Notes under the pieces: model-generated | Databases searched by the model: none | What the model was told of the DNA's origin: nothing | The model's input: the letters and a program-made list of their open reading frames with translations, nothing else | Part shown: one piece after another, positions 5,565 to 57,364 of the stretch | Position numbering within the stretch: the first letter of the stretch is position 1 | Layout of the letters: each line of letters opens with the position of its first letter | IMG/VR virus record: IMGVR_UViG_3300030380_002146 | Span: 1 to 60,277 of that record | Origin: a virus | Strand: one strand, 5' to 3' | DNA length: 60,277 nucleotides | Program-made: the position numbers and the translations under genes

Positions 5565-5983
5565 TGTTAATAAACAGTATTCCACAGTATATTCAAGGTA
5601 TTACAAATGCAAAAATAGATTTAACAGCAACTGATCTTGAGACCCTATTTACAGTTCCTAGTGATGCCGATTTTAATGCCGTTGTAGTTAGTTCTATTTT
5701 AGTATCTAATGACGATACATCTAACGCCTCTACTATTACAGTAACTGTCGTTGGAAATGGACTTAATTCAGCAGGAGCAGTAACTGCTCATACTTTTAGT
5801 TTATTTAAGGATTCAGCCATCGCTGCTAAAACAACAGTAGAGCTTTTAACGAAAGATATAATTTTAAAAAGTGGAGAAGTTTTACAGGTACAAGCTGGTC
5901 ATGCAGATAGATTACATGTCTTAGCTAGTATTCAAGAATTATCAAAAACAAGAATTACAACAAGTGCGATAGTGAGTATATAG
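5564..5983 (+). CDS. Hypothetical virion-associated protein
   Basis: 139 residues, overlapping the previous gene by one base. Composition is beta-rich with a central segment (VVSSILVSNDDTSNASTITV) typical of small structural or decoration-like proteins that also appear elsewhere in this genome, for example the 119-aa protein at 56037. No catalytic motif. Probably a tail or collar accessory protein; function unknown. Confidence 0.55.
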   Translation: MLINSIPQYIQGITNAKIDLTATDLETLFTVPSDADFNAVVVSSILVSNDDTSNASTITVTVVGNGLNSAGAVTAHTFSLFKDSAIAAKTTVELLTKDIILKSGEVLQVQAGHADRLHVLASIQELSKTRITTSAIVSI

Positions 5984-6027
5984 ATAAAAGGATTGTAAAA
6001 TGAATTATTATAAGTTATGGTATCAAC

Positions 6028-7095
6028 ATGATTGCTCCGTATGAAAACCAAGCTAAAGGTTTAGCAAGTTTAGGTAGGTATGAAGATACTTATATTGTTC
6101 ATGCTGCAGAGGGCGAAACAGTTATTCCTAAAGAAGTTTTGGCTAGTAATCCAAAATTAAAAGAAGACATTTTTAAACAAATGCGTGCAGTTGGTATAGA
6201 ACAGCCAGAGAGTTATATTGTTGGTGATGCTTTAAATTCTAGAAACCCTATAACTGGACAGCCAGAGTTTTTCTTTAAGTCTTTAAAAAAGTTCCTTCCA
6301 ACTATTGGTGCTATCGTTGGTAATATACTACTTCCAGGAATTGGTGGTGCTATTGGTTCTGGTTTAGGAAGTCTTGCTGCAGGACAAAGTGTAGAACAAT
6401 CTCTTGTAAATGCTGGTCTTTCTTATGTGGGTGGAAAATATGTGGCTCCACAACTCGATAAAGCAGTAGCAGGGTTTAGTGGAGGAACTGTACCTACAAT
6501 AGGTTCTACTATTGGATCTGGAGCAAAATATGCTGTTACAGGTCCAGCTGCAGCAGGATCGAGTTTACTTTCTGGTGCAGGAGCAACTATACCTCAAGTT
6601 GTTACAGCAGGACTAACCCCTACAGTAGGGAAAGAACTTATGAAACTTGCAGAAGTACCTGAAATAGAGGCTTCTAATAAAAACAGTATTGTAGATGATT
6701 ATTATGCTGCATTAGCAAGAGGAGAAAACCCTCCATTACCTGCAGAGTTAACCCCTCCTCCTGAATCTGCTTTATTTGCACAGGAAAAACAGGGTGCACC
6801 AAGAGATCCTCAAGAATTTCTAGCTAATGTTGATTATGAGGCATTACTAAATAATGTTCTTAACAGACGAATGTTTTTAAATGCTGCCAATGGTGGGTAT
6901 ATTACTGGTCCAGGATCACCAACTAGTGATTCCATTCCTACAAGGTTATCTAATACAGAGTTTGTACAAACAGGAAAAGCCGTAGCTGGGGCAGATCCAA
7001 CAGGTAATAACAACCCTGACCAAGGAGCAAAAGTTATGGCAGGGATTATGAGGGCTTTTGAACAAAAAGCTGATCAAAATGCGAGGAGAGCATAA
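6028..7095 (+). CDS. Virion structural protein, conserved in marine phages
   Basis: 355 residues. The N-terminus (LASLGRYEDTYIVHAAEGE) and C-terminal motif (GPGSPTSDSIPTRLSNTEF) are shared by structural proteins of marine phages. A central hydrophobic, glycine-rich region (residues ~90-130) could insert in a membrane, suggesting an internal or ejected protein. The ribosome site before ATG 6028 is weak; a 14-codon reading frame at 6000-6044 with a better site (AAGGA) overlaps the start and may feed ribosomes into it. Role inferred from its place in the virion gene block. Confidence 0.6.
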   Translation: MIAPYENQAKGLASLGRYEDTYIVHAAEGETVIPKEVLASNPKLKEDIFKQMRAVGIEQPESYIVGDALNSRNPITGQPEFFFKSLKKFLPTIGAIVGNILLPGIGGAIGSGLGSLAAGQSVEQSLVNAGLSYVGGKYVAPQLDKAVAGFSGGTVPTIGSTIGSGAKYAVTGPAAAGSSLLSGAGATIPQVVTAGLTPTVGKELMKLAEVPEIEASNKNSIVDDYYAALARGENPPLPAELTPPPESALFAQEKQGAPRDPQEFLANVDYEALLNNVLNRRMFLNAANGGYITGPGSPTSDSIPTRLSNTEFVQTGKAVAGADPTGNNNPDQGAKVMAGIMRAFEQKADQNARRA

Positions 7096-23604: not shown

Positions 23605-24444
23605 ATGGCATCTATACGAAAACGACTTGCAGTAAATGCAAACAATTCTAAAAACACTAGAATGGATATAGCTAGTGCAGGAACACTAGCAAACTGGCGA
23701 CCAGACGAACTAGCCCACATTAGTAGGTTTTGTAAAATGGGTCAACTTATTATGGATAAAGCTAAGACTCTTGGCAGACCAGTGGATATATTAGAAATAG
23801 GTTGTGGTGAAGTTTGGACGCTTCGTTATTTGTATAAAGCGTTTGTTTCAAGAAAAGCAGAAATAGTAAACAGCTATGTAGGTATGGATATTGATCCAGC
23901 TTGTCTCGATGATTGGTGGGTAGACGACGATTTACCATTAACTGAGCATAAATGGTTTCAAACTATGTCAGGTGGTAAAGGTCAGATTATTCTTCAAGAC
24001 TTAACAACTAACCCTGAACCTCCAGTAGAAGATGAGTCTATAGATGTGTTTATGACAACAGAAGTTATTGAACATATGGGAAGAGAGTTTATCGAACCGT
24101 GGATCGAAGCATCAGCTAGAAAACTCCGTTCAGGTGGTATTGCTTATATATCAACTCCTAACCATGACGGTTCGAATGATAAACTTCCAGAAGACCATGT
24201 TTATGAGTGGGGTTATGAAGAACTAAAAGAACTTTTAGAGAAACATTTTATATTAGAACGTCATTACGGTACGTTTACTCAAACTCATAACTTTAATAAA
24301 AACCACCGTGCTAATCTTCGATGGCCACAGCACGTCATAGACGACATAAAGAATAGGTTCGATAAACATTGGCAAAGAGTTCTTTTAGCTACGGCTTATC
24401 CTGAAACATCTAATAATGTAAACTGGCATTTAAGGAAGAAGTAA
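23605..24444 (+). CDS. Class I SAM-dependent methyltransferase-like protein
   Basis: 279 residues, AAAGGAGG site. Motif I DILEIGCGEVW (61-71), the acidic loop GMDIDP (93-98), a motif IV-like segment VFMTTEVIEHM (148-158) and ISTPNHDG (182-189) match small-molecule-type Rossmann methyltransferases. It lacks an (N/D)PP(Y/F) or PC motif, so it is not an ordinary DNA adenine or cytosine methylase. Its stop overlaps the start of the aGPT-Pplase-like gene, placing it in a base-modification operon; it may methylate a modified base or its side chain (inference). Confidence 0.8.
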   Translation: MASIRKRLAVNANNSKNTRMDIASAGTLANWRPDELAHISRFCKMGQLIMDKAKTLGRPVDILEIGCGEVWTLRYLYKAFVSRKAEIVNSYVGMDIDPACLDDWWVDDDLPLTEHKWFQTMSGGKGQIILQDLTTNPEPPVEDESIDVFMTTEVIEHMGREFIEPWIEASARKLRSGGIAYISTPNHDGSNDKLPEDHVYEWGYEELKELLEKHFILERHYGTFTQTHNFNKNHRANLRWPQHVIDDIKNRFDKHWQRVLLATAYPETSNNVNWHLRKK

Positions 24445-25271
24445 TGGAGCCAACAAGACGATTTTTTCGATGGATTGAGGATAGACATGAAATCTACTTA
24501 AAAAAAGAAGCAGGTCTTCCTCGCCCATGGACAACGGATGTCATATTAGATACATATCGATTTACCAATCCGTTTCGTGAAAACGATAAAACAACTGTGT
24601 GGTTTCGTGAGAACATGAGAGATCCACTCAAACATACAAAAGATGTATTATTAGCTACGGTAATTTTTCGTTGGTTTAATTTAATTGAAACTGGAGAAAC
24701 TTTATTAAGACATAATCTTCATAAGTTTTGGAATGCAGAACTAGCAAGAGAAAAAATAAAAGAACAAAAGAAGTTTGTTACTGGAGGATATATAATAAAA
24801 ACTCCAGACGGTATGGATAAAGTTGACGGTGTTATTTGGTGTATAAATAATATTGTAAAAAACCATAACAAAATTCTAAACGACTTTGCAGAGATAAATA
24901 CTTTACAAAAAGCCCACTTACTATTTCAAGAGTACCCATACTTAGGTCATTTTATGTCTTACGAATTAGTTTGTGATCTTCGCTATACTCTTTTCTTAGA
25001 TAAAGCCCTTGATATACATCGTTGGGCTAATGCTGGTCCAGGAGCGATGAGAGGGTTAAATCGTATTCATGGTCGTAGTTTAAATTATACAAGTAAGAAA
25101 CATGATTGGAATGCTGAAATGGTTGAGTTAAAATCAGTTCGTAACCAATACTTACCTTATTCTATAGCCCATAAACTAGAGATGCGAGAAATAGAACATA
25201 GCTTATGTGAGTTTGATAAGTATGAACGAGTCCGTAAAGGAGAAGGAAAGCCAAGGGGGTTATATAGATGA
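24444..25271 (+). CDS. Alpha-glutamyl/putrescinyl thymine pyrophosphorylase-like protein (aGPT-Pplase)
   Basis: 275 residues. The N-terminal motif RPWTTDVILDTYRFTNPFR (27-45) and END..T.WFRENM is the hallmark of the aGPT-Pplase families described in hypermodified phages such as SP10 and phiW-14, where the enzyme replaces a pyrophosphorylated 5-hydroxymethyl group on thymine in DNA with an amino compound. The later region ALDIHRWANAGPGAMRGLNR is helix-hairpin-helix-like and fits DNA binding. Overlaps both neighbours (1 and 4 bases). The reaction in this phage is inferred. Confidence 0.78.
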   Translation: MEPTRRFFRWIEDRHEIYLKKEAGLPRPWTTDVILDTYRFTNPFRENDKTTVWFRENMRDPLKHTKDVLLATVIFRWFNLIETGETLLRHNLHKFWNAELAREKIKEQKKFVTGGYIIKTPDGMDKVDGVIWCINNIVKNHNKILNDFAEINTLQKAHLLFQEYPYLGHFMSYELVCDLRYTLFLDKALDIHRWANAGPGAMRGLNRIHGRSLNYTSKKHDWNAEMVELKSVRNQYLPYSIAHKLEMREIEHSLCEFDKYERVRKGEGKPRGLYR

Positions 25272-26317
25272 TTACATTTCGTGGAGATAACGTAGAAGAA
25301 GTATTTCAAATAGCTTTACTGTCATTACGAGATCCGTCTAGCACGGTAAAGATACCAACTCGAAATGGCGATGTCTTAATGTTTAGAGACCCTGTTTGTT
25401 CTACTTACAACTTTCCAAGAGAACGAGTAATGTTTATTCCTGAGAGAGATTGTAATCCTTTTTTCCATTTTATAGAGGGCTTATGGATGTTAGCTGGACG
25501 AAGAGACGTAGAACCATTGGCACGATTCGTAAAAAGAATGAGAGAGTTTTCTGACGATGGAAACTTTTTATATGGATCTTACGGCTATCGTTGGAGACAC
25601 CAGTTTGGTTATGATCAGCTTCATAGTGTTATACAAAAACTAAAAGATAATAAATGGGATAGACGAATAGTTTTATCAATGTGGGATCCTGTACATGATC
25701 TTCATTATGTAGGTAAAGATGTTCCATGTAATACTCAAATATATTTTAAAGCCTATCCAACAAAAGAACTAGGGGAAGAGCATAACCAGATTAAATTAGA
25801 TATGACAGTTTGTTGTAGATCTAATGATTTAATTTGGGGTGCTTACGGTGCTAACGCAGTCCACTTTAGTATGCTTCATGAATATATAGCAACAATGTCA
25901 GGATTAAGTGTGGGTTGTTATCATCAAATTAGTAATAATGCTCATGTTTATTTAGATGTTTGGAATGAGTTAGATAAGAAACTTTCTAAAGGTATTTCTC
26001 CCCATGGTTATGAAACAGATCCAGATATGACTTGGCTAGACTTAATACAAGATAAACAAAACTTCGATAAGGATTTAAATTATTTCTTTAACTTGTTTTG
26101 TTCTAGTAAAGATAATGAAGAACTAGGTGGCATGTGGATAACACCAGATCATTTTAGTAATATGAAAACATTTGCTTACACAGCGATACCTATTGTTGAG
26201 GCATGGAACTATTATAAACAAAAAGACTATGACCATGCTATATTACAAGCCTCGACTATCCAAGCACCAGATTGGAGAAAAGCATGTATGGAGTGGTTAG
26301 AAAGGAAAGTAAAATGA
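25268..26317 (+). CDS. Thymidylate synthase-fold enzyme, likely dUMP hydroxymethylase
   Basis: 349 residues. The catalytic Cys154 lies in DVPCNTQ. The folate/dUMP-binding segment is CCRSNDLIWGAYGANAVHF (182-200), with R184, D187 and N196 near positions of the thymidylate-synthase R, D and N residues. Asn rather than Asp at the last position fits uracil, not cytosine, as substrate. The RSND...WG form recalls pyrimidine hydroxymethylases. Beside an aGPT-Pplase gene, synthesis of 5-hydroxymethyl-dUMP is more likely than plain dTMP. Discrimination needs biochemistry. Confidence 0.78.
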   Translation: MITFRGDNVEEVFQIALLSLRDPSSTVKIPTRNGDVLMFRDPVCSTYNFPRERVMFIPERDCNPFFHFIEGLWMLAGRRDVEPLARFVKRMREFSDDGNFLYGSYGYRWRHQFGYDQLHSVIQKLKDNKWDRRIVLSMWDPVHDLHYVGKDVPCNTQIYFKAYPTKELGEEHNQIKLDMTVCCRSNDLIWGAYGANAVHFSMLHEYIATMSGLSVGCYHQISNNAHVYLDVWNELDKKLSKGISPHGYETDPDMTWLDLIQDKQNFDKDLNYFFNLFCSSKDNEELGGMWITPDHFSNMKTFAYTAIPIVEAWNYYKQKDYDHAILQASTIQAPDWRKACMEWLERKVK

Positions 26318-26625
26318 GTAATCAAGCAACTAGAAGTAAGATAATTCAAAAAGTAAATAAATTAGCTAACGAAGATGTAACAGGTCTACACGAAGCAGAA
26401 AAGTCTTATGGAGATAGCTGGAAAAAGCGTGGAGGCATAGGGGCTTTTATGATGTTAGCTAGGAAGTGGGATCGTATAGAAAACCAAGCAAACGACTATA
26501 CTTACGATATCTTCTTAGCTTTAGACGAAGATAAGAGACCAGAGGGGCTTATAGACGATATAAGAGACCTTAGACGCTATCTACTACTAGTCGAGGCAGA
26601 AATGGCTTTACAAAAGAATGGGTAA
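26314..26625 (+). CDS. Nucleotide-modification-associated domain 1-like protein
   Basis: 103 residues from ATG 26314, overlapping the previous stop by four bases with AAAGGAAAG upstream; the longer frame from 26272 is not needed. The pattern YGDSWKKRGGIGAFMMLARKWDR, then DDIRDLRRYLLLVEAEM, resembles Nmad1 (DUF1599) proteins, which occur with base-modification genes. I am unsure of the assignment. Operon position beside the TS/aGPT-Pplase pair supports a supporting role in modified-nucleotide metabolism. Confidence 0.5.
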   Translation: MSNQATRSKIIQKVNKLANEDVTGLHEAEKSYGDSWKKRGGIGAFMMLARKWDRIENQANDYTYDIFLALDEDKRPEGLIDDIRDLRRYLLLVEAEMALQKNG

Positions 26626-37403: not shown

Positions 37404-37982
37404 ATGAAAGATCTTGAGTATACTCCACTTTTGCCTAGTGAGTGTGGCAATTACTGGATTGCTCCCGATGGTAAGAGACATCGTCCACTACTTCCAAAGC
37501 ACAAAAAGTTCTGTAGATTGTATGTTGAAGGAATGTCTGCTGCTGCAGCAGCACGAAAGTCAGGCTTTACGAAAAGCATGATTGGCTCAAAAGTTCAAGG
37601 TTCTGCAATGTTGAGGACAAACCCACTTATAGCAAACTTCATTATAGAACTTTTGGATAAGCAGAGAGAACGAGCAGATGTTTCGGTTGACTCGCATCTA
37701 ACAGAATTATCCCATTTGCGTGACGAAGCCAAGGATACAGGGCAAATTGCTGCAGCCATCTCAGCCGAGGTTAATCGTGGCAAGGTCGCAGGGCTTTATA
37801 TTGATCGCAAAGAGGTCATGGTCTCAAAGGTTGAAACAATGAGTTCCGAAGACCTGATATCCAGGATACAACAATTAGTTGATGGCAGCAACATGAAAGT
37901 AGTGAACCATGTACCAGACAGAGAAGACATTATATCAAGCAATGAAGAAAAACTTACCGAGGGTTCATTGGCAAAGAGTTGA
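37404..37982 (+). CDS. terS: Terminase small subunit (TerS)
   Basis: 192 residues. The DNA-binding N-terminal domain is LPKHKKFCRLYVEGMSAAAAARKSGF (in pieces: residues 30-54), then SMIGSKVQGSAMLRTNPLI, which matches Terminase_2-type small subunits. The C-terminal helices (HLTELSHLRDEAKDTGQ; AISAEVNRGKVAGLYIDRK) fit oligomerisation. It recognises the packaging site and feeds TerL. It is 3.3 kb away from TerL, with small genes between. The packaging site may lie nearby, perhaps in the adjacent element. AAAGGAG precedes the ATG. Confidence 0.82.
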   Translation: MKDLEYTPLLPSECGNYWIAPDGKRHRPLLPKHKKFCRLYVEGMSAAAAARKSGFTKSMIGSKVQGSAMLRTNPLIANFIIELLDKQRERADVSVDSHLTELSHLRDEAKDTGQIAAAISAEVNRGKVAGLYIDRKEVMVSKVETMSSEDLISRIQQLVDGSNMKVVNHVPDREDIISSNEEKLTEGSLAKS

Positions 37983-38316
37983 GACTGGAGCATTATCAAC
38001 TGGTGTTCCTGACGTCAATGGCTGTTGGCAAGGGTCAGAGTTTTGGATTGAACTCAAGATAGGAGTCATTCAATCAGCCAAGCTATCCCCACAGCAATGT
38101 GCATGGCACATGAGACGTGCTTCATCAGGGGGAGTAAGTTGGATATTTGCAAGCGACCCATCATCACGCAAACTTTGGATGGTATCAGGCAATCAATCAG
38201 TCAACCTCAGAAACAAGAGCCTGGATTCATCACTCTCTGTTCATCACTATAGCCAACCGTATGATTGGAAAGCGATATTAGAACAGTTTTGCTTGACTGA
38301 CCGACTGACTGTCTGA
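37909..38316 (+). CDS. VRR-NUC / PD-(D/E)XK nuclease
   Basis: 135 residues. Nuclease core: RVETGALSTGVPDVNGCW with D35, then EFWIELKIG with E48 and K50, and LSPQQCAWH (59-67), the classic VRR-NUC layout. It probably resolves branched DNA before packaging or processes ends. The start at 37909 keeps the conserved TLYQAMKKNL helix and overlaps TerS by 74 bases; ATG 37942 is an alternative. The final codons are written over a TGAC repeat. Confidence 0.78.
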   Translation: MYQTEKTLYQAMKKNLPRVHWQRVETGALSTGVPDVNGCWQGSEFWIELKIGVIQSAKLSPQQCAWHMRRASSGGVSWIFASDPSSRKLWMVSGNQSVNLRNKSLDSSLSVHHYSQPYDWKAILEQFCLTDRLTV

Positions 38317-38327
38317 TTGATTGACTC
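38294..38327 (+). repeat. TGAC-type repeat cluster, copy 1
   Basis: TTGACTGACCGACTGACTGT followed by CTGATTGATTGACTC: degenerate tandem GACT/TGAT units spanning the end of the nuclease gene and the spacer. Confidence 0.65.
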
Positions 38328-38352
38328 AAGGAAATAGCGATTTTGTATACAT

Positions 38353-38454: not shown

Positions 38455-38805
38455 ATGGCAAAAACTCAAAAGAAGGTCAACGCTTCCAAGTCAGTTGAAA
38501 AAGTAGAAGCTCCAAAGTTAGCAGTAGTATCACCAGTTGGAAACTCTGGTATACCTCGTCCAGCTAAGTCAGGCTTCGATATTCGCAAAGTAACATTATT
38601 AACCAAGACTATTGAAAATCGTAAGATTGCTGGTCAGGCTATGATTATCCTGAATACGCTCGAGGCTCTTGGTGGTTCTGCTACTCAAAAAGATGTAGTT
38701 GATAACCTTATCGCTAATGGTCTTGCGACTGTCCAAACTCCAAAGCGTATCTATGATTTCTATCGTAAGATGCTCGTCGAAGCTGAATATATCAAGCTTG
38801 ACTAA
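38455..38805 (+). CDS. Winged-helix-like protein, paralogue of 39852
   Basis: 116 residues. N-terminal basic tail (KKVNASKSVEKVEAPK) with the motif GIPRPAKSG. The C-terminal half (ILNTLEALGGSATQKDVVDN, then KRIYDFYRKMLVEAEYI) resembles a winged helix. It aligns by eye with the protein at 39852-40232 (GIPAPSKGS, LDNLGGTASKAEIL, RIWAFYRQRLMAEG). Possible DNA-binding or nucleoid-like protein. It stands alone between a promoter module and a strong terminator. Confidence 0.6.
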   Translation: MAKTQKKVNASKSVEKVEAPKLAVVSPVGNSGIPRPAKSGFDIRKVTLLTKTIENRKIAGQAMIILNTLEALGGSATQKDVVDNLIANGLATVQTPKRIYDFYRKMLVEAEYIKLD

Positions 38806-38842: not shown

Positions 38843-38855
38843 ATCATCGTATTGC

Positions 38856-38870
38856 TTGACTGACTCGTCA
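38856..38870 (+). repeat. TGAC-type repeat, copy 2
   Basis: TTGACTGACTCGTCA; the same 15-base word, with one extra TGAC unit, occurs at 38957-38975. Lies in the spacer after the TTCG terminator. Confidence 0.6.
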
Positions 38871-38956
38871 TCATACCTTTCATCATCATAGCCACTCACA
38901 TATACTTTTGAACTTTACTTTTATTTATGAATGACTGAACTGTATGTACTCTGTGA

Positions 38957-38975
38957 TTGACTGACTGACTCGTCA
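38957..38975 (+). repeat. TGAC-type repeat, copy 3
   Basis: TTGACTGACTGACTCGTCA, differing from copy 2 by one additional TGAC unit. Sits directly upstream of the promoter module at 38990. Confidence 0.6.
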
Positions 38976-39607: not shown

Positions 39608-39851
39608 TAATGTTCCCTATAGGTGAGTGTATACACACTCGCCTGTATTTTTGCTCGGTGTATTGTCTGACTGACTGACTCTACGGCAGGAAATAGCGAA
39701 AATAGATAGTTAACAAGTTAATTAAATAATTTAACTTTTTTTAATTATTTTACTTTTTTTACTTTACTATAGTAAAAAAATGCTTAATATAATTAGTAAG
39801 GGGGCTAGGTGGTCTAGCCCCTATAATTAGAAAGTAAGAAAGGTCAATAAA
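39608..39851. other. Intergenic spacer with repeats and structured leader
   Basis: Contains a TGAC cluster (39666-39681), the word GGAAATAGCGA (39689-39699, also at 38330-38340), a long A/T stretch with TTTACTATAGTAAA, and a hairpin GGGGCTAG (39801-39808) / CTAGCCCC (39814-39821) that starts the CTAG-rich island. No ORF is convincing. Includes the ribosome site AGAAAGG for 39852. Confidence 0.6.
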
Positions 39852-40232
39852 ATGACAAATACTAAATCAAAGGTAGCCGTACCTACTAATAACGGTAAAG
39901 CAGATACACCTACTACTAACCCTAATACGGTTAACCGTATGGGTATACCTGCCCCTAGTAAAGGTAGCTCAGCTAATATAAAAGTTAGCCTAGCCCCTAA
40001 CGTATTAGACGTACTAACTAATAACCCTTTACCCCCACAAGCCCATTGCCTATTACTAGCCCTAGATAATCTAGGGGGTACGGCTAGTAAAGCTGAAATA
40101 CTAAAAGAGCTAGATAATACCCCTTTTAGTAGTACTCAATCTAAAGACCGTATATGGGCTTTCTACCGTCAACGGTTAATGGCTGAAGGTAAAGCATACG
40201 GTGGGGCTAACCCCTACCTAGTTAAGGCTTAA
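39852..40232 (+). CDS. Winged-helix-like protein with aberrant codon use
   Basis: 126 residues, paralogue of the 38455 protein. N-terminus is Thr/Asn/Pro-rich and basic; C-terminal half (LLLALDNLGGTASKAEILKE; RIWAFYRQRLMAEGKAYG) looks like a winged helix. Codon use is unlike the rest of the window: many CTA, GCC, CCC, CCT, GTA and AGC codons, giving repeated CTAG and TAGCCCCTA words, while GGA, AGA and CTT are almost absent. This suggests recent transfer or selection on the DNA sequence itself. Followed by a strong terminator. Confidence 0.65.
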   Translation: MTNTKSKVAVPTNNGKADTPTTNPNTVNRMGIPAPSKGSSANIKVSLAPNVLDVLTNNPLPPQAHCLLLALDNLGGTASKAEILKELDNTPFSSTQSKDRIWAFYRQRLMAEGKAYGGANPYLVKA

Positions 40233-40255
40233 ACGCCTAGCTACCTAGCCCCTAG

Positions 40256-40283
40256 CCCCTAGCCTAACGGCTAGGGGTTTTTT
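40256..40283 (+). terminator. Rho-independent terminator
   Basis: CCCCTAGCC, loop TAAC, GGCTAGGGG, then TTTTTTATT. Preceded by two more TAGCCCC repeats that could form alternative pairings. Confidence 0.9.
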
Positions 40284-40630
40284 ATTACCCTAAAATATTC
40301 GTGTACTAGTACACTAGTACGCATTAGTTAACATGTTAACTATCCCGCCCTACGGGCTTAACCCTAGCCCTACGGGCTAGACCTTAAAAAGTTTTTAATA
40401 CCCCCTATTTATAACGGCTATAGCTAAACCCCTACCCCTAAAATAGTAAAAGCGACCACCTTTTTTAGCACTAAAGTGCAACTGCCTCGAATAATACGAG
40501 TCATTTTTTAGGATTGACAATTTTTGACCCCCACCCCATACTATAGTAAAAAAAGAGTCAGGAACCTTCTAACCCCCTTTTAATTTTTTTAAAAATAGTA
40601 TATATGTGAAATAACCATGGAGAATGACGC
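40284..40630. other. Gene-free region with palindromes upstream of TerL operon
   Basis: About 350 bases without an ORF. Holds GTACTAGTAC-type palindromes (~40302-40321), an 18-bp perfect palindrome TAGTTAACATGTTAACTA (40325-40342), and two short hairpins GCCC-TAC-GGGC (40347-40378). The CTAG-rich style stops near 40450 and ordinary AT-rich sequence and a sigma70-like promoter follow. Possible origin, packaging or regulatory region. Confidence 0.6.
40514..40542 (+). promoter_or_regulatory. Sigma70-like promoter of the head operon
   Basis: TTGACA (40514-40519), 17-base spacer, CATACT (40537-40542), overlapping CATACTATAGTA. It is the best -35/-10 pair seen and faces the 40631 gene, TerL and the head genes. 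Confidence 0.65.
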
Positions 40631-41335
40631 ATGAATATTGGTGGATTAGCATCTATTCCGACTAACGCTGCACCAAGGCAGATGTCGATGGGTGGACAGC
40701 CACATATGCTTGCTTATATAAATCCTCAAGAAGCCCAGTTATTAAAAGACCTTGGTGGAACAGGCAGTCCGACTATTGCTGGAATCCCAGCTTTTTACAA
40801 TCCTTCCGAGGATATGGGATTAGAAGATTCTCTTGCAGACCAACAATCTGTTTCAGCAGGAATGGGTGCGACATCTACTTCAGGAGACGAGGGAATTGGT
40901 CCAACAGATTTTGGATTAGATCCTTTTGGTGGAATGGGTCCAAATATGTCTGTAGATATGCAAGGTAATGTTACAGGTATAGCAGGCTATAGTCCGACGA
41001 TAGGAGGAAACCAAGGATATAATCCTGGAGATGTTTCTATGAAAGAACTACCAAGACCAGGACCAAGTTCCAGTTTTACTAGAAGTCCTAGTACGGGTGT
41101 TTCATTTACTCCTACGCAAATAGGCAAAGGAATAACAAGTCTTTTATCTCTTGTTCCTAGTCCTGTACAACCGATAGCTCAAGTAATTAGTAAAGGATTA
41201 GCCCTAAAAGATATCGGAAACGTAATTGGTGGCAATCGAGAAGGTGTACTTGGTAGTATAGTAGGGGCTATAGAAAATTTTTCATTAAATGATATAACAT
41301 CAAGTCTTGCAGCACAAGCTAGAGGTGAAAAGTGA
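40631..41335 (+). CDS. Conserved virion-associated protein upstream of TerL
   Basis: 234 residues. HMLAYINPQEAQLLKDLGG, then TIAGIPAFY matches the N-terminal module of a marine-phage structural family, related in style to the protein at 6028. The rest is Gly/Pro/Ser-rich with a hydrophobic stretch near residues 175-200. First gene of the head operon; overlaps the TerL start by four bases. Function unknown. Confidence 0.6.
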   Translation: MNIGGLASIPTNAAPRQMSMGGQPHMLAYINPQEAQLLKDLGGTGSPTIAGIPAFYNPSEDMGLEDSLADQQSVSAGMGATSTSGDEGIGPTDFGLDPFGGMGPNMSVDMQGNVTGIAGYSPTIGGNQGYNPGDVSMKELPRPGPSSSFTRSPSTGVSFTPTQIGKGITSLLSLVPSPVQPIAQVISKGLALKDIGNVIGGNREGVLGSIVGAIENFSLNDITSSLAAQARGEK

Positions 41336-42843
41336 ATCTTAATTCGATAGAAGATGTTCAATCCTTTATTGGCAATATAGATTTAACTACGTTAAAACGA
41401 GACGAGTTATTAGAATTAAATTTAATTACTGATGAATTACAACGACGTGAAAAACAAGAAGGCTGTCGAAAAGATTTTTTAACTTTTGTTAGAACGATGT
41501 GGAGTTCCTTTATCGAAGGTGCACATCACAGGATTATGTGCGAACAATTCAATAAGATAGCTAGAGGTGAATTAAGACGAGTTATAATAAACATGGCTCC
41601 TCGACATTCGAAATCAGAAATGTCTAGTTATATGTTACCCTCTTGGTTATTAGGAATTAAACCAGATTTAAAAATAATACAAGCGACACATACTGGCGAA
41701 CTGGCTGTAAGGTTTGGTAGGAAAGTCAGGGATTTAGTTGATACGAGAGAGTATAAAGAAATATTTCCAGATGTTTCTTTACGAGCAGATTCAAAAGCTG
41801 CAGGTCGATGGGAGACAACTGAGGGTGGCGAGTATTTTGCTTCGGGTGTCGGAGGTGCAATTACTGGTAGAGGTGCTGATATTTTAATAATTGACGATCC
41901 CCATTCGGAACAAGACGCATTAAGTGAAACAGCTATGGATATGGCTTATGAATGGTATACTTCTGGTCCACGACAGAGACTTCAACCTGGAGGAACGATC
42001 ATTCTTGTGATGACAAGATGGTCAAAAAAGGATCTAACAGGGCAATTATTGAAAGCCCAGATGTCAGATTTAAAAGCAGATAAGTGGGAACTCATTGAAT
42101 TTCCTGCAATTATGCCTTCTGGTAAGCCAGTTTGGGAAGAATTTTGGAAAATTGAAGAATTAGAAGGAATTAGAGCATCTTTACCTCATGGAAAATGGGC
42201 TGCACAGTGGATGCAAGAGCCTACAGGTGGAGAAGGTGCAATAATTAAGAAAGAATGGATAAATATTTGGGAAAAAAGCGAACCTCCTGTTGCTGAATAT
42301 ATAATTCAGAGTTATGATACTGCTTTTTTGAAGTCAGAACGTGCAGATTATAGTGCGATTACGACTTGGGGAGTATTTTATAAGGATGAGGGGGGCGAAC
42401 CTAACATAATTTTGCTTGATTCTATCAAAGATCGGTACGATTTTCCTGAATTAAAAGAAATTGCGTACGAAAACTATATACATTGGGATCCAGATGTAGT
42501 TATAATAGAAGCCAAAGCGTCAGGATTACCATTAACGCAAGAATTACGGAAGATGGGAATACCTGTACAAAATTATTCTCCAAATAGGGGGCAAGATAAG
42601 ATTGTTAGGGCTAATGCTGTCGCACCCTTATTCGAATCGGGAATGGTGTGGGTGCCAGAAACGAGATGGGCAGAGGAATTGGTGGAAGAACTTACGGAAT
42701 TTCCTAATGGTGAGCATGATGATTTGGTTGATTCTACTACTCAGGCTCTTTTACGATTTAGGCAGGGAGGTTTTTTGAAACATCCAAAAGATTACGAAGA
42801 CGAACCTCTAGGTTACGAAGCAAAAAGTTTTGTTTATTATTAA
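41332..42843 (+). CDS. terL: Terminase large subunit (TerL)
   Basis: 503 residues, GTG start at 41332 supported by AGAGG and overlap with the previous stop. ATPase: MAPRHSKS (88-95) as Walker A, LIIDDPH (185-191) as Walker B, then MTRWSKKDLTG. Nuclease: D329 in SYDTAF, E393 in IIEAKASG, D463/D464 in HDDLVDS, the RNase H-like triad. It pumps DNA into the procapsid and cuts it. The type of end cut (headful or cohesive) is not decidable here. Confidence 0.95.
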   Translation: MNLNSIEDVQSFIGNIDLTTLKRDELLELNLITDELQRREKQEGCRKDFLTFVRTMWSSFIEGAHHRIMCEQFNKIARGELRRVIINMAPRHSKSEMSSYMLPSWLLGIKPDLKIIQATHTGELAVRFGRKVRDLVDTREYKEIFPDVSLRADSKAAGRWETTEGGEYFASGVGGAITGRGADILIIDDPHSEQDALSETAMDMAYEWYTSGPRQRLQPGGTIILVMTRWSKKDLTGQLLKAQMSDLKADKWELIEFPAIMPSGKPVWEEFWKIEELEGIRASLPHGKWAAQWMQEPTGGEGAIIKKEWINIWEKSEPPVAEYIIQSYDTAFLKSERADYSAITTWGVFYKDEGGEPNIILLDSIKDRYDFPELKEIAYENYIHWDPDVVIIEAKASGLPLTQELRKMGIPVQNYSPNRGQDKIVRANAVAPLFESGMVWVPETRWAEELVEELTEFPNGEHDDLVDSTTQALLRFRQGGFLKHPKDYEDEPLGYEAKSFVYY

Positions 42844-56036: not shown

Positions 56037-56396
56037 ATGGCAAATACATTTAAAACTGTTACAGCAGCAGGGATAACAAGTGAAGAACAAATATATGTTG
56101 CAGGTGGTTCGATTGTTGCAACAATAGTTTTAGGAATTATGGTAGCCAACACAACAACAAGTCAAGTTACAGTATCAGTTCAATTAGTATCAAACACAGC
56201 TAGTAGAACACATGCTTCAACTAATAGTGGTAATAATGCTACAGTCCATTTGATTAAAAATGCACCAGTGCCTGTAGGTTCATCTCTTGAATTATTAGCT
56301 GGTAATAAGGTTGTATTAGAAGATACTGACGAAATTTTACTAACTGCATCAGGTGCATCAGATATAACTATATCAATAATGGAGATAACAGCCTAA
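56037..56396 (+). CDS. Small structural protein
   Basis: 119 residues. GITSEEQIYVAGGSIVATIV and PVPVGSSLELLAGNKVVLED resemble small virion proteins that sit beside fibre genes, and its fold seems related to the 139-aa protein at 5564. Overlaps the next fibre gene by one base. Confidence 0.6.
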   Translation: MANTFKTVTAAGITSEEQIYVAGGSIVATIVLGIMVANTTTSQVTVSVQLVSNTASRTHASTNSGNNATVHLIKNAPVPVGSSLELLAGNKVVLEDTDEILLTASGASDITISIMEITA

Positions 56397-57364
56397 TGCC
56401 ATATATAGGAAACACAGCAGGAAATAGATTTGTAGCTAGTAAAACGGCAACACAGTTTTCTGGTAATGGTTCTGCCGTTGATTTTACACTAGATCACTCA
56501 GTAAGTTCTCCTGAAGATATACTTGTATCTGTAGATGGTGTTATACAAGAACCAACTGTTGCTTATGGAATAGTTAGTGGAACTACATTAAGATTTACTG
56601 CTGCACCATCAAATAACTCTGGTAATAATATATTTGTTTATTATTTGTTTAGAACAGTGGCTACAGTAGATCATCCTGCAACAAGTGCTTTGAGTGCAAC
56701 CACAGGAACTTTTACAAGTAATGCTACTGTAGGTGGAACTCTTGGAGTAACAGGTGTACCTACGTTTACAGGCAGAAGTGTCCATAGTGGTGGCATAACA
56801 ATCGCTAATGATGGACAGATAGGTTCTGTAGGTGATGCAGATGCTATGTCGATATCAAGTAGTGGAGTTGTAACATTTAGTCAAACTCCTGTTGGTGTTG
56901 GGGGTATTACACTACTTAATAGTGGTGGGGTTTCTATGAGTGGACAAGATGAAGCTGATTTTTTAAGTTTGCCATCAGGAATAAAAAGAATACAAATAAA
57001 TTTTAATGGACTTAGTGCATCTGCTTCTGATGCGAGTGCTTTAATACGACTTGGAAAAAGTGATGGATTAGTAACATCAGGTTATGTTTCTACAAGTTCT
57101 TGGGGTAGTAGTCAGGTTCAAGACACAAGTGGTATTATTGTTTATGGAACTGGTGGCTCTAATACTATTTCAGGTATTGCAACAATAAACCATATGGGGT
57201 CAAATAATTTCGTTACATCTCATGCTGTTAGATATAATTCATCTAATAGTGTTTTTGGTGGTGGTCATGTTGCATTAGGTGGAACTTTAGACAGATTAAG
57301 AGTGCAAGGTGTTTCTGGTGGTACTTTTGATGCTGGTACTGTTAACATTACATATGAGTTATAG
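56396..57364 (+). CDS. Tail fibre protein with MPYIG anchor
   Basis: 322 residues. MPYIGNTAGNRFVASKTATQ starts an anchor domain shared with 58694; TLDHSVSSPEDILVSVDGVI is characteristic. The joint NATVGGTLGVTGV is shared with the next fibre (57672), suggesting exchange of distal domains. C-terminal beta-rich tip. One of several fibres. Confidence 0.75.
   Translation: MPYIGNTAGNRFVASKTATQFSGNGSAVDFTLDHSVSSPEDILVSVDGVIQEPTVAYGIVSGTTLRFTAAPSNNSGNNIFVYYLFRTVATVDHPATSALSATTGTFTSNATVGGTLGVTGVPTFTGRSVHSGGITIANDGQIGSVGDADAMSISSSGVVTFSQTPVGVGGITLLNSGGVSMSGQDEADFLSLPSGIKRIQINFNGLSASASDASALIRLGKSDGLVTSGYVSTSSWGSSQVQDTSGIIVYGTGGSNTISGIATINHMGSNNFVTSHAVRYNSSNSVFGGGHVALGGTLDRLRVQGVSGGTFDAGTVNITYEL

Follow-up and report, generated by a model that had tools for sequence, protein, structure and literature searches.

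The closest described systems are the phages M6, ViI and phiW-14, which, like the phage reported here, carry a 5-hmdU DNA kinase (HMUDK) and thymidylate-synthase (TS) homologues near PolA; their target context, TpG/TpC, is also the one proposed for this phage (PMC6449724; PMC9599517). It has been reported that resistant sites in the DNA of these three phages share TG or TC (S = C or G after T), which was attributed to the kinase (PMC6449724). According to PMC9599517, 30–40% of T is replaced in M6 and ViI; in our phage, 37% of T stands in the corresponding context. Phosphorylation by HMUDK reduces transcription by E. coli RNA polymerase (RNAP) to 37% of that of the natural template (PMC6457204), and RNAP is also stopped at promoters by bulky groups in the major groove (work cited in PMC11550810).

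We analyzed a 60,277-bp viral contig (IMGVR_UViG_3300030380_002146, positions 1 to 60,277), hereafter the window. TpS denotes T followed by G or C (S = C or G) on both strands, i.e., TC, TG, CA and GA sites. A sequence-only reading had described a CTAG-rich island at 39801–40450. This island is real: CTAG occurred 19 times in 650 bp (173 times in the whole window), well outside the 2.3 predicted from base composition, and no other 650-bp segment of the contig deviated as much in composition. However, CTAG was not the primary signal, as loss of TG/CA and TC/GA (dinucleotide rho of 0.33 and 0.28, with TA at 1.76 and CC/GG at 1.83) comes first. The dinucleotide frequencies within the island predict 8.4 CTAG, and the moderate excess that remains (P = 0.0025) was attributed to palindromes; CTAG richness is thus largely a by-product. 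CTAG density as a driver was rejected because TpS loss was the constant feature among relatives, whose islands contained 3–19 CTAG each. The maximal-scoring TpS-poor segment (75 nats, compared with a random maximum of 15) also corrected the limits of the island to those shown in Table 1. Within it, the probability that T is followed by G or C was 0.12, compared with 0.37 genome-wide, and bases following A, C and G showed no comparable drop, so the depletion was T-specific. Its edges were sharp: depletion stopped within tens of bases, and TpS observed/expected outside the island was 1.08 and 0.84 (values for individual parts are in Table 1).

Since TpS and the mirror set {CT, GT, AC, AG} together comprise all S/W boundaries, the share of these boundaries that are TpS is insensitive to composition, and this share was adopted as the statistic. 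The raw TpS score alone was dropped because poly-T in SPO1 scores 23.9. The TpS-avoidance score of the window was 48.4, whereas the permutation null had a mean of 8.4 and a maximum of 14.4, which excludes a chance origin of the island. The mirror set reached a maximum of 8.0 and revealed no island.

Table 1. Features of the island, its neighborhood and the putative hypermodification genes in the window (o/e, TpS observed/expected).
Feature	Position	Strand	Remarks
TpS-poor island	39691..40477		57 TC/TG/CA/GA sites in 787 bp; maximal-scoring segment
Upstream/promoter region	39691..39799	+	o/e 0.31
Palindrome TACTATAGTA, TpS-free, candidate operator	39765..39774	+	a single further exact copy exists in the window; conserved in relatives
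5' leader hairpin	39800..39822	+	-17.2 kcal/mol, z -2.5; leader o/e 0.48
126-aa gene, possible winged-helix DNA-binding protein	39852..40232	+	weak matches; o/e 0.39
Intrinsic terminator	40254..40279	+	40233-40290 without any TpS site (o/e 0.00)
Palindromic hairpin 3' of terminator	40301..40322		
Two more hairpins, GCCCTACGGGC type	40347..40380		o/e 0.25 in 40291-40477 (187 bp)
Second TACTATAGTA	40539..40548	+	outside island; at probable late promoter, with TTGACA at 40514
Paralogue of island gene	38455..38805	+	not depleted, internal control; TpS index 1.07-1.09
Terminase small subunit (terS)	37404..37982	+	upstream neighbor
Terminase large subunit (terL)	41332..42843	+	downstream neighbor
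HMUDK homologue	24444..25271	+	PF18723 HMUDK_hel, E 2.4e-47
TS homologue, probable dUMP hydroxymethylase	25268..26317	+	adjoins HMUDK
SAM methyltransferase	23605..24444	+	conserved beside HMUDK

Folding and coordinates confirmed that the island covers a 5' hairpin, a whole gene, a terminator and a palindromic spacer, as had been proposed. The codon skew of the gene could also be reproduced (CTA 9, GCC 5 and GTA 4, with GGA, AGA and CTT at zero). The gene contained 36 TpS sites, compared with a protein-allowed minimum of 18 and with 86 for random synonymous codons, and had the lowest TpS index in the genome (0.26; mean of all genes 0.91, sd 0.14). The amino-acid content of its protein was not shifted against residues that require TpS in their codons. 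Searches of Pfam, PHROG and PDB gave nothing significant for this protein. Weak Pfam wHTH matches, a structure model with pLDDT of 70 and Foldseek matches to the Fur family at E of about 1 (not significant) suggest that it is possibly a winged-helix DNA-binding protein. The paralogue located 1 kb away (29% identity, E = 1e-12) had an ordinary composition, consistent with the normal codons noted for it earlier. In G018 and G004 the paralogue was the most TpS-rich gene (1.40 and 1.27), and these adjacent paralogues sit at opposite extremes of modifiability. Besides, spacers of GACTGACTGACTG type, which are very dense TpS arrays, were located upstream of the island (38296–38330, 38850–38870, 38940–38975 and 39665–39690). 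In G001, G016 and G021, the top or second TpS-rich segments were also found just upstream of the island, each individually not significant.

The loss of TpG/TpC on both strands led us to look for hypermodification genes, and the prediction held: an HMUDK gene was located beside a TS homologue at 24444–26317. The former was 34–45% identical to homologues in M6, PaMx11 and Epa5; the latter, which adjoins it and is probably a dUMP hydroxymethylase, was 42% identical to that of M6, and both clustered with PolA. Judging from these genes, this marine bacterial virus appears to decorate much of its thymine, and we infer that its DNA is hypermodified at TpS. A small ORF (26284–26625) that separates the TS homologue from PolA and has a weak PHROG match to a replication protein was the second most TpS-poor gene (0.65 in G000, 0.63 in G012 and 0.58 in G018). 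In another genome (G038), a tandem pair of HMUDK-domain genes was present at 61015–62672.

The island, its gene and the leader kept their place between terS and terL in the divergent relatives that reach the locus. In 7 of 10 contigs of the window clade, and in G021 and G024, the island was the strongest TpS-poor segment, and within the clade it corresponded to the transcription unit plus flanks of roughly 100–260 bp. Islands of relatives ranged from 32 to 58% G+C, following the lineage, and CA/TG and GA/TC were strongly depleted in each; in G012 and G016, CpG was low as well. Relatives thus share the feature as an island, yet not as a genome-wide style. The TpS index of most orthologues was 0.22–0.51, with 0.63–0.80 in one sub-lineage and 0.96–1.06 in L051, L052 and L055, whereas that of the paralogue in orthologue-bearing contigs was 0.83–1.48. 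In the protein tree, low TpS extended across deep divergence and the relaxed orthologues of normal composition were nested within low ones. Against close relatives, 36 TpS-creating substitutions were observed in the island gene versus 87 expected, and 120 TpS-neutral ones versus 71 expected; these counts combine related genomes, and their events are not mutually independent. TpS-creating changes matched expectation in three controls, i.e., the paralogue, the downstream gene and terL. Thus, TpS-creating substitutions in the island gene are selected against and this selection is ongoing. Of the causes offered by the sequence-only reading, these counts and the depleted non-transcribed flanks support selection on the DNA itself; selection for CTAG density is not supported, since CTAG fell from 19 to 3 in relatives.

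Boundary scores of relatives were 48.7 (G001), 29.3 (G021), 26.3 (G012), 21.5 (G016), 14.1 (G024), 10.4 (G018) and 9.0 (G006). Because the permutation null of the window reached 14.4, scores near 10 count only by shared position; taken alone, G006, G018, G032, G030 and G039 were inside the null. Unrelated contigs with HMUDK also reached high scores (G044 38.0, G043 16.2, L208 13.6 and G033 12.9). In contrast, all 11 phages lacking HMUDK scored 7.6 or less and had no island, whereas phages with HMUDK reached 48.7, showing that island presence is associated with this enzyme. Two contigs found through terL, L334 (31.5) and L384 (13.0), are fragments and were for that reason not classed with respect to HMUDK. 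In L334, which is of HTVC023P type, the strong island (510–945) lay over a 64-aa ORF. Not all phages with HMUDK had an island: it was absent in G004, G019, G040, G026, G029, M6, PaMx11, ViI and phiW-14. By the boundary statistic no strong island was found in M6, PaMx11, Epa5, CN1, Sonora, phiW-14 and ViI, and a low-TpS segment of Sonora was discarded as it was inside a tail gene. We found no gene explaining presence or loss of the island among HMUDK phages, including G019 and G040. In unrelated HMUDK phages, TpS-poor islands were mostly noncoding, for example at 56170–56846 in G044, 5892–6291 in G043 and 4–203 in G033; in G043, 78% of T preceded S genome-wide compared with 20% in the island. 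In M6 (L145) and Bordetella CN1 (L147), the lowest-TpS segment lay in the gap just upstream of terS, with conserved TpS-poor iteron-like repeats (GTAAGTAAGTTAAGTAAGTTAAGTA).

In the explanation that we favor, with a probability of about 0.78, the sequence of the island itself keeps the phage's own thymidine hypermodification out of this stretch and so encodes an exclusion zone. The HMUDK would place hypermodified T at TpG/TpC, as in the studied phages with this enzyme, and selection would have removed most of these sites on both strands, through synonymous codon choice within the gene and without that constraint in the flanks. With most TpG/TpC removed, the stretch should therefore stay nearly unmodified, while elsewhere about 37% of T would be modifiable. 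As to purpose, we consider it an even bet that the zone keeps one complete transcription unit, which lies next to the terminase genes and encodes a small putative DNA-binding regulator, open to transcription when the DNA is fully modified, e.g., in an entering virion genome or in progeny genomes late in infection; bulky groups or a phosphorylated intermediate would hinder RNAP outside the zone. The lack of an island in several phages with HMUDK counts against the proposal. Against a simple transcription view, depletion continued for 190 bp beyond the terminator, although transcribing the gene would not by itself require this. Also, other noncoding DNA and promoters showed no TpS depletion beyond control phages, and modified DNA must therefore be transcribable elsewhere. 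A more speculative extension, which we regard as rather doubtful, is that phages with hypermodified thymine carry an epigenetic partition written in their sequence: one transcription unit, unmodifiable on both strands, would stay legible to host RNAP even when virion or progeny DNA is modified throughout, and would encode a regulator starting or switching the programme, and the fully modifiable paralogue beside it would respond to modification state, the pair acting as a modification-timed switch.

The main rival, possible although less probable than an exclusion zone serving the gene, is that the island is a modification-free site (pac/cos, a replication origin or another nucleoprotein site) that has to be recognized or cut in modified DNA, the gene being incidental. 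This would fit the depleted 190 bp after the terminator, a location that in the window clade is always between the two terminase genes, and the islands upstream of terL in G032, where the ORF is an unrelated one of 115 aa, and L384, where there is no ORF. The M6 and CN1 gaps upstream of terS, with their iteron-like TpS-free repeats, point the same way. However, a site does not need a whole gene body, and among clade members the island follows the gene and its flanks; besides, the G044 and G033 islands are away from any recognized terL. No terminal repeats were found in the contigs, and GC skew indicated no origin at the island.

Selection at the level of RNA or codons (RNase sites, translation or codon bias) could account for the strong codon skew in a transcript with 5' and 3' hairpins. 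It is very unlikely, because non-transcribed flanks were equally depleted (0.31 and 0.25) and the four lost dinucleotides need one rule on double-stranded DNA but two rules on RNA; the noncoding depletion in unrelated HMUDK phages and the unshifted amino acids argue against it as well. Escape from a modification-dependent (type IV-like) host nuclease, or from nicking or repair at modified T, would likewise demand freedom from modified T, but is very unlikely, as it is hard to see what a phage would gain by shielding 0.8 kb when the rest of its 60-kb genome is still cut. A local mutational bias or hypermutation in place of selection would explain why depletion is even over coding and noncoding parts; the edges within tens of bases, the recurrence at one locus, the excess of TpS-neutral substitutions with controls near expectation, and a TpS-poor state kept at very different G+C make this highly improbable. 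Finally, recent acquisition of the gene from a donor of unusual genome style, suggested earlier and in keeping with a local composition strongly unlike the genome, has a negligible probability, because the gene is syntenic and vertically inherited over deep divergence with normal-composition orthologues nested, island G+C tracks lineage (0.32–0.58), and no phage in the collection matched the island protein.

No description of such islands was found among open-access papers. Our findings suggest that a hypermodified genome has a place it cannot afford to modify, which may be read from the sequence alone. They open to experiment the question of how host enzymes read a template in which bulky groups sit on a third of the thymines, predict TpS as the modification context of many uncultured phages, and offer a simple genome scan for functional sites. 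With regard to relatives, the window terL was 54–64% identical to those of HTVC023P-type phages. The same pair of hypermodification genes near PolA is reported for HTVC023P-type pelagiphages of clades V/VIII/IX, with TS and aGPT-PPlase1, in the excerpted text of PMC9599517, which mentions no islands for them. Unlike the window, four HTVC023P-type members that we checked had neither HMUDK nor an island. Similarly, M6, ViI and phiW-14 differ from this phage in having no comparable TpS-free island. In restriction-site avoidance, phage genomes lose the target words of enzymes by selection; the loss of target words is alike here, but the enzyme would be the phage's own and only one 0.8-kb zone is affected. 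Unmethylated CpG islands, which are unmodified compositional islands over a promoter and gene, offer an analogy only: there the target words are kept, whereas here, in a phage, they have been removed, with selection on codons shown.
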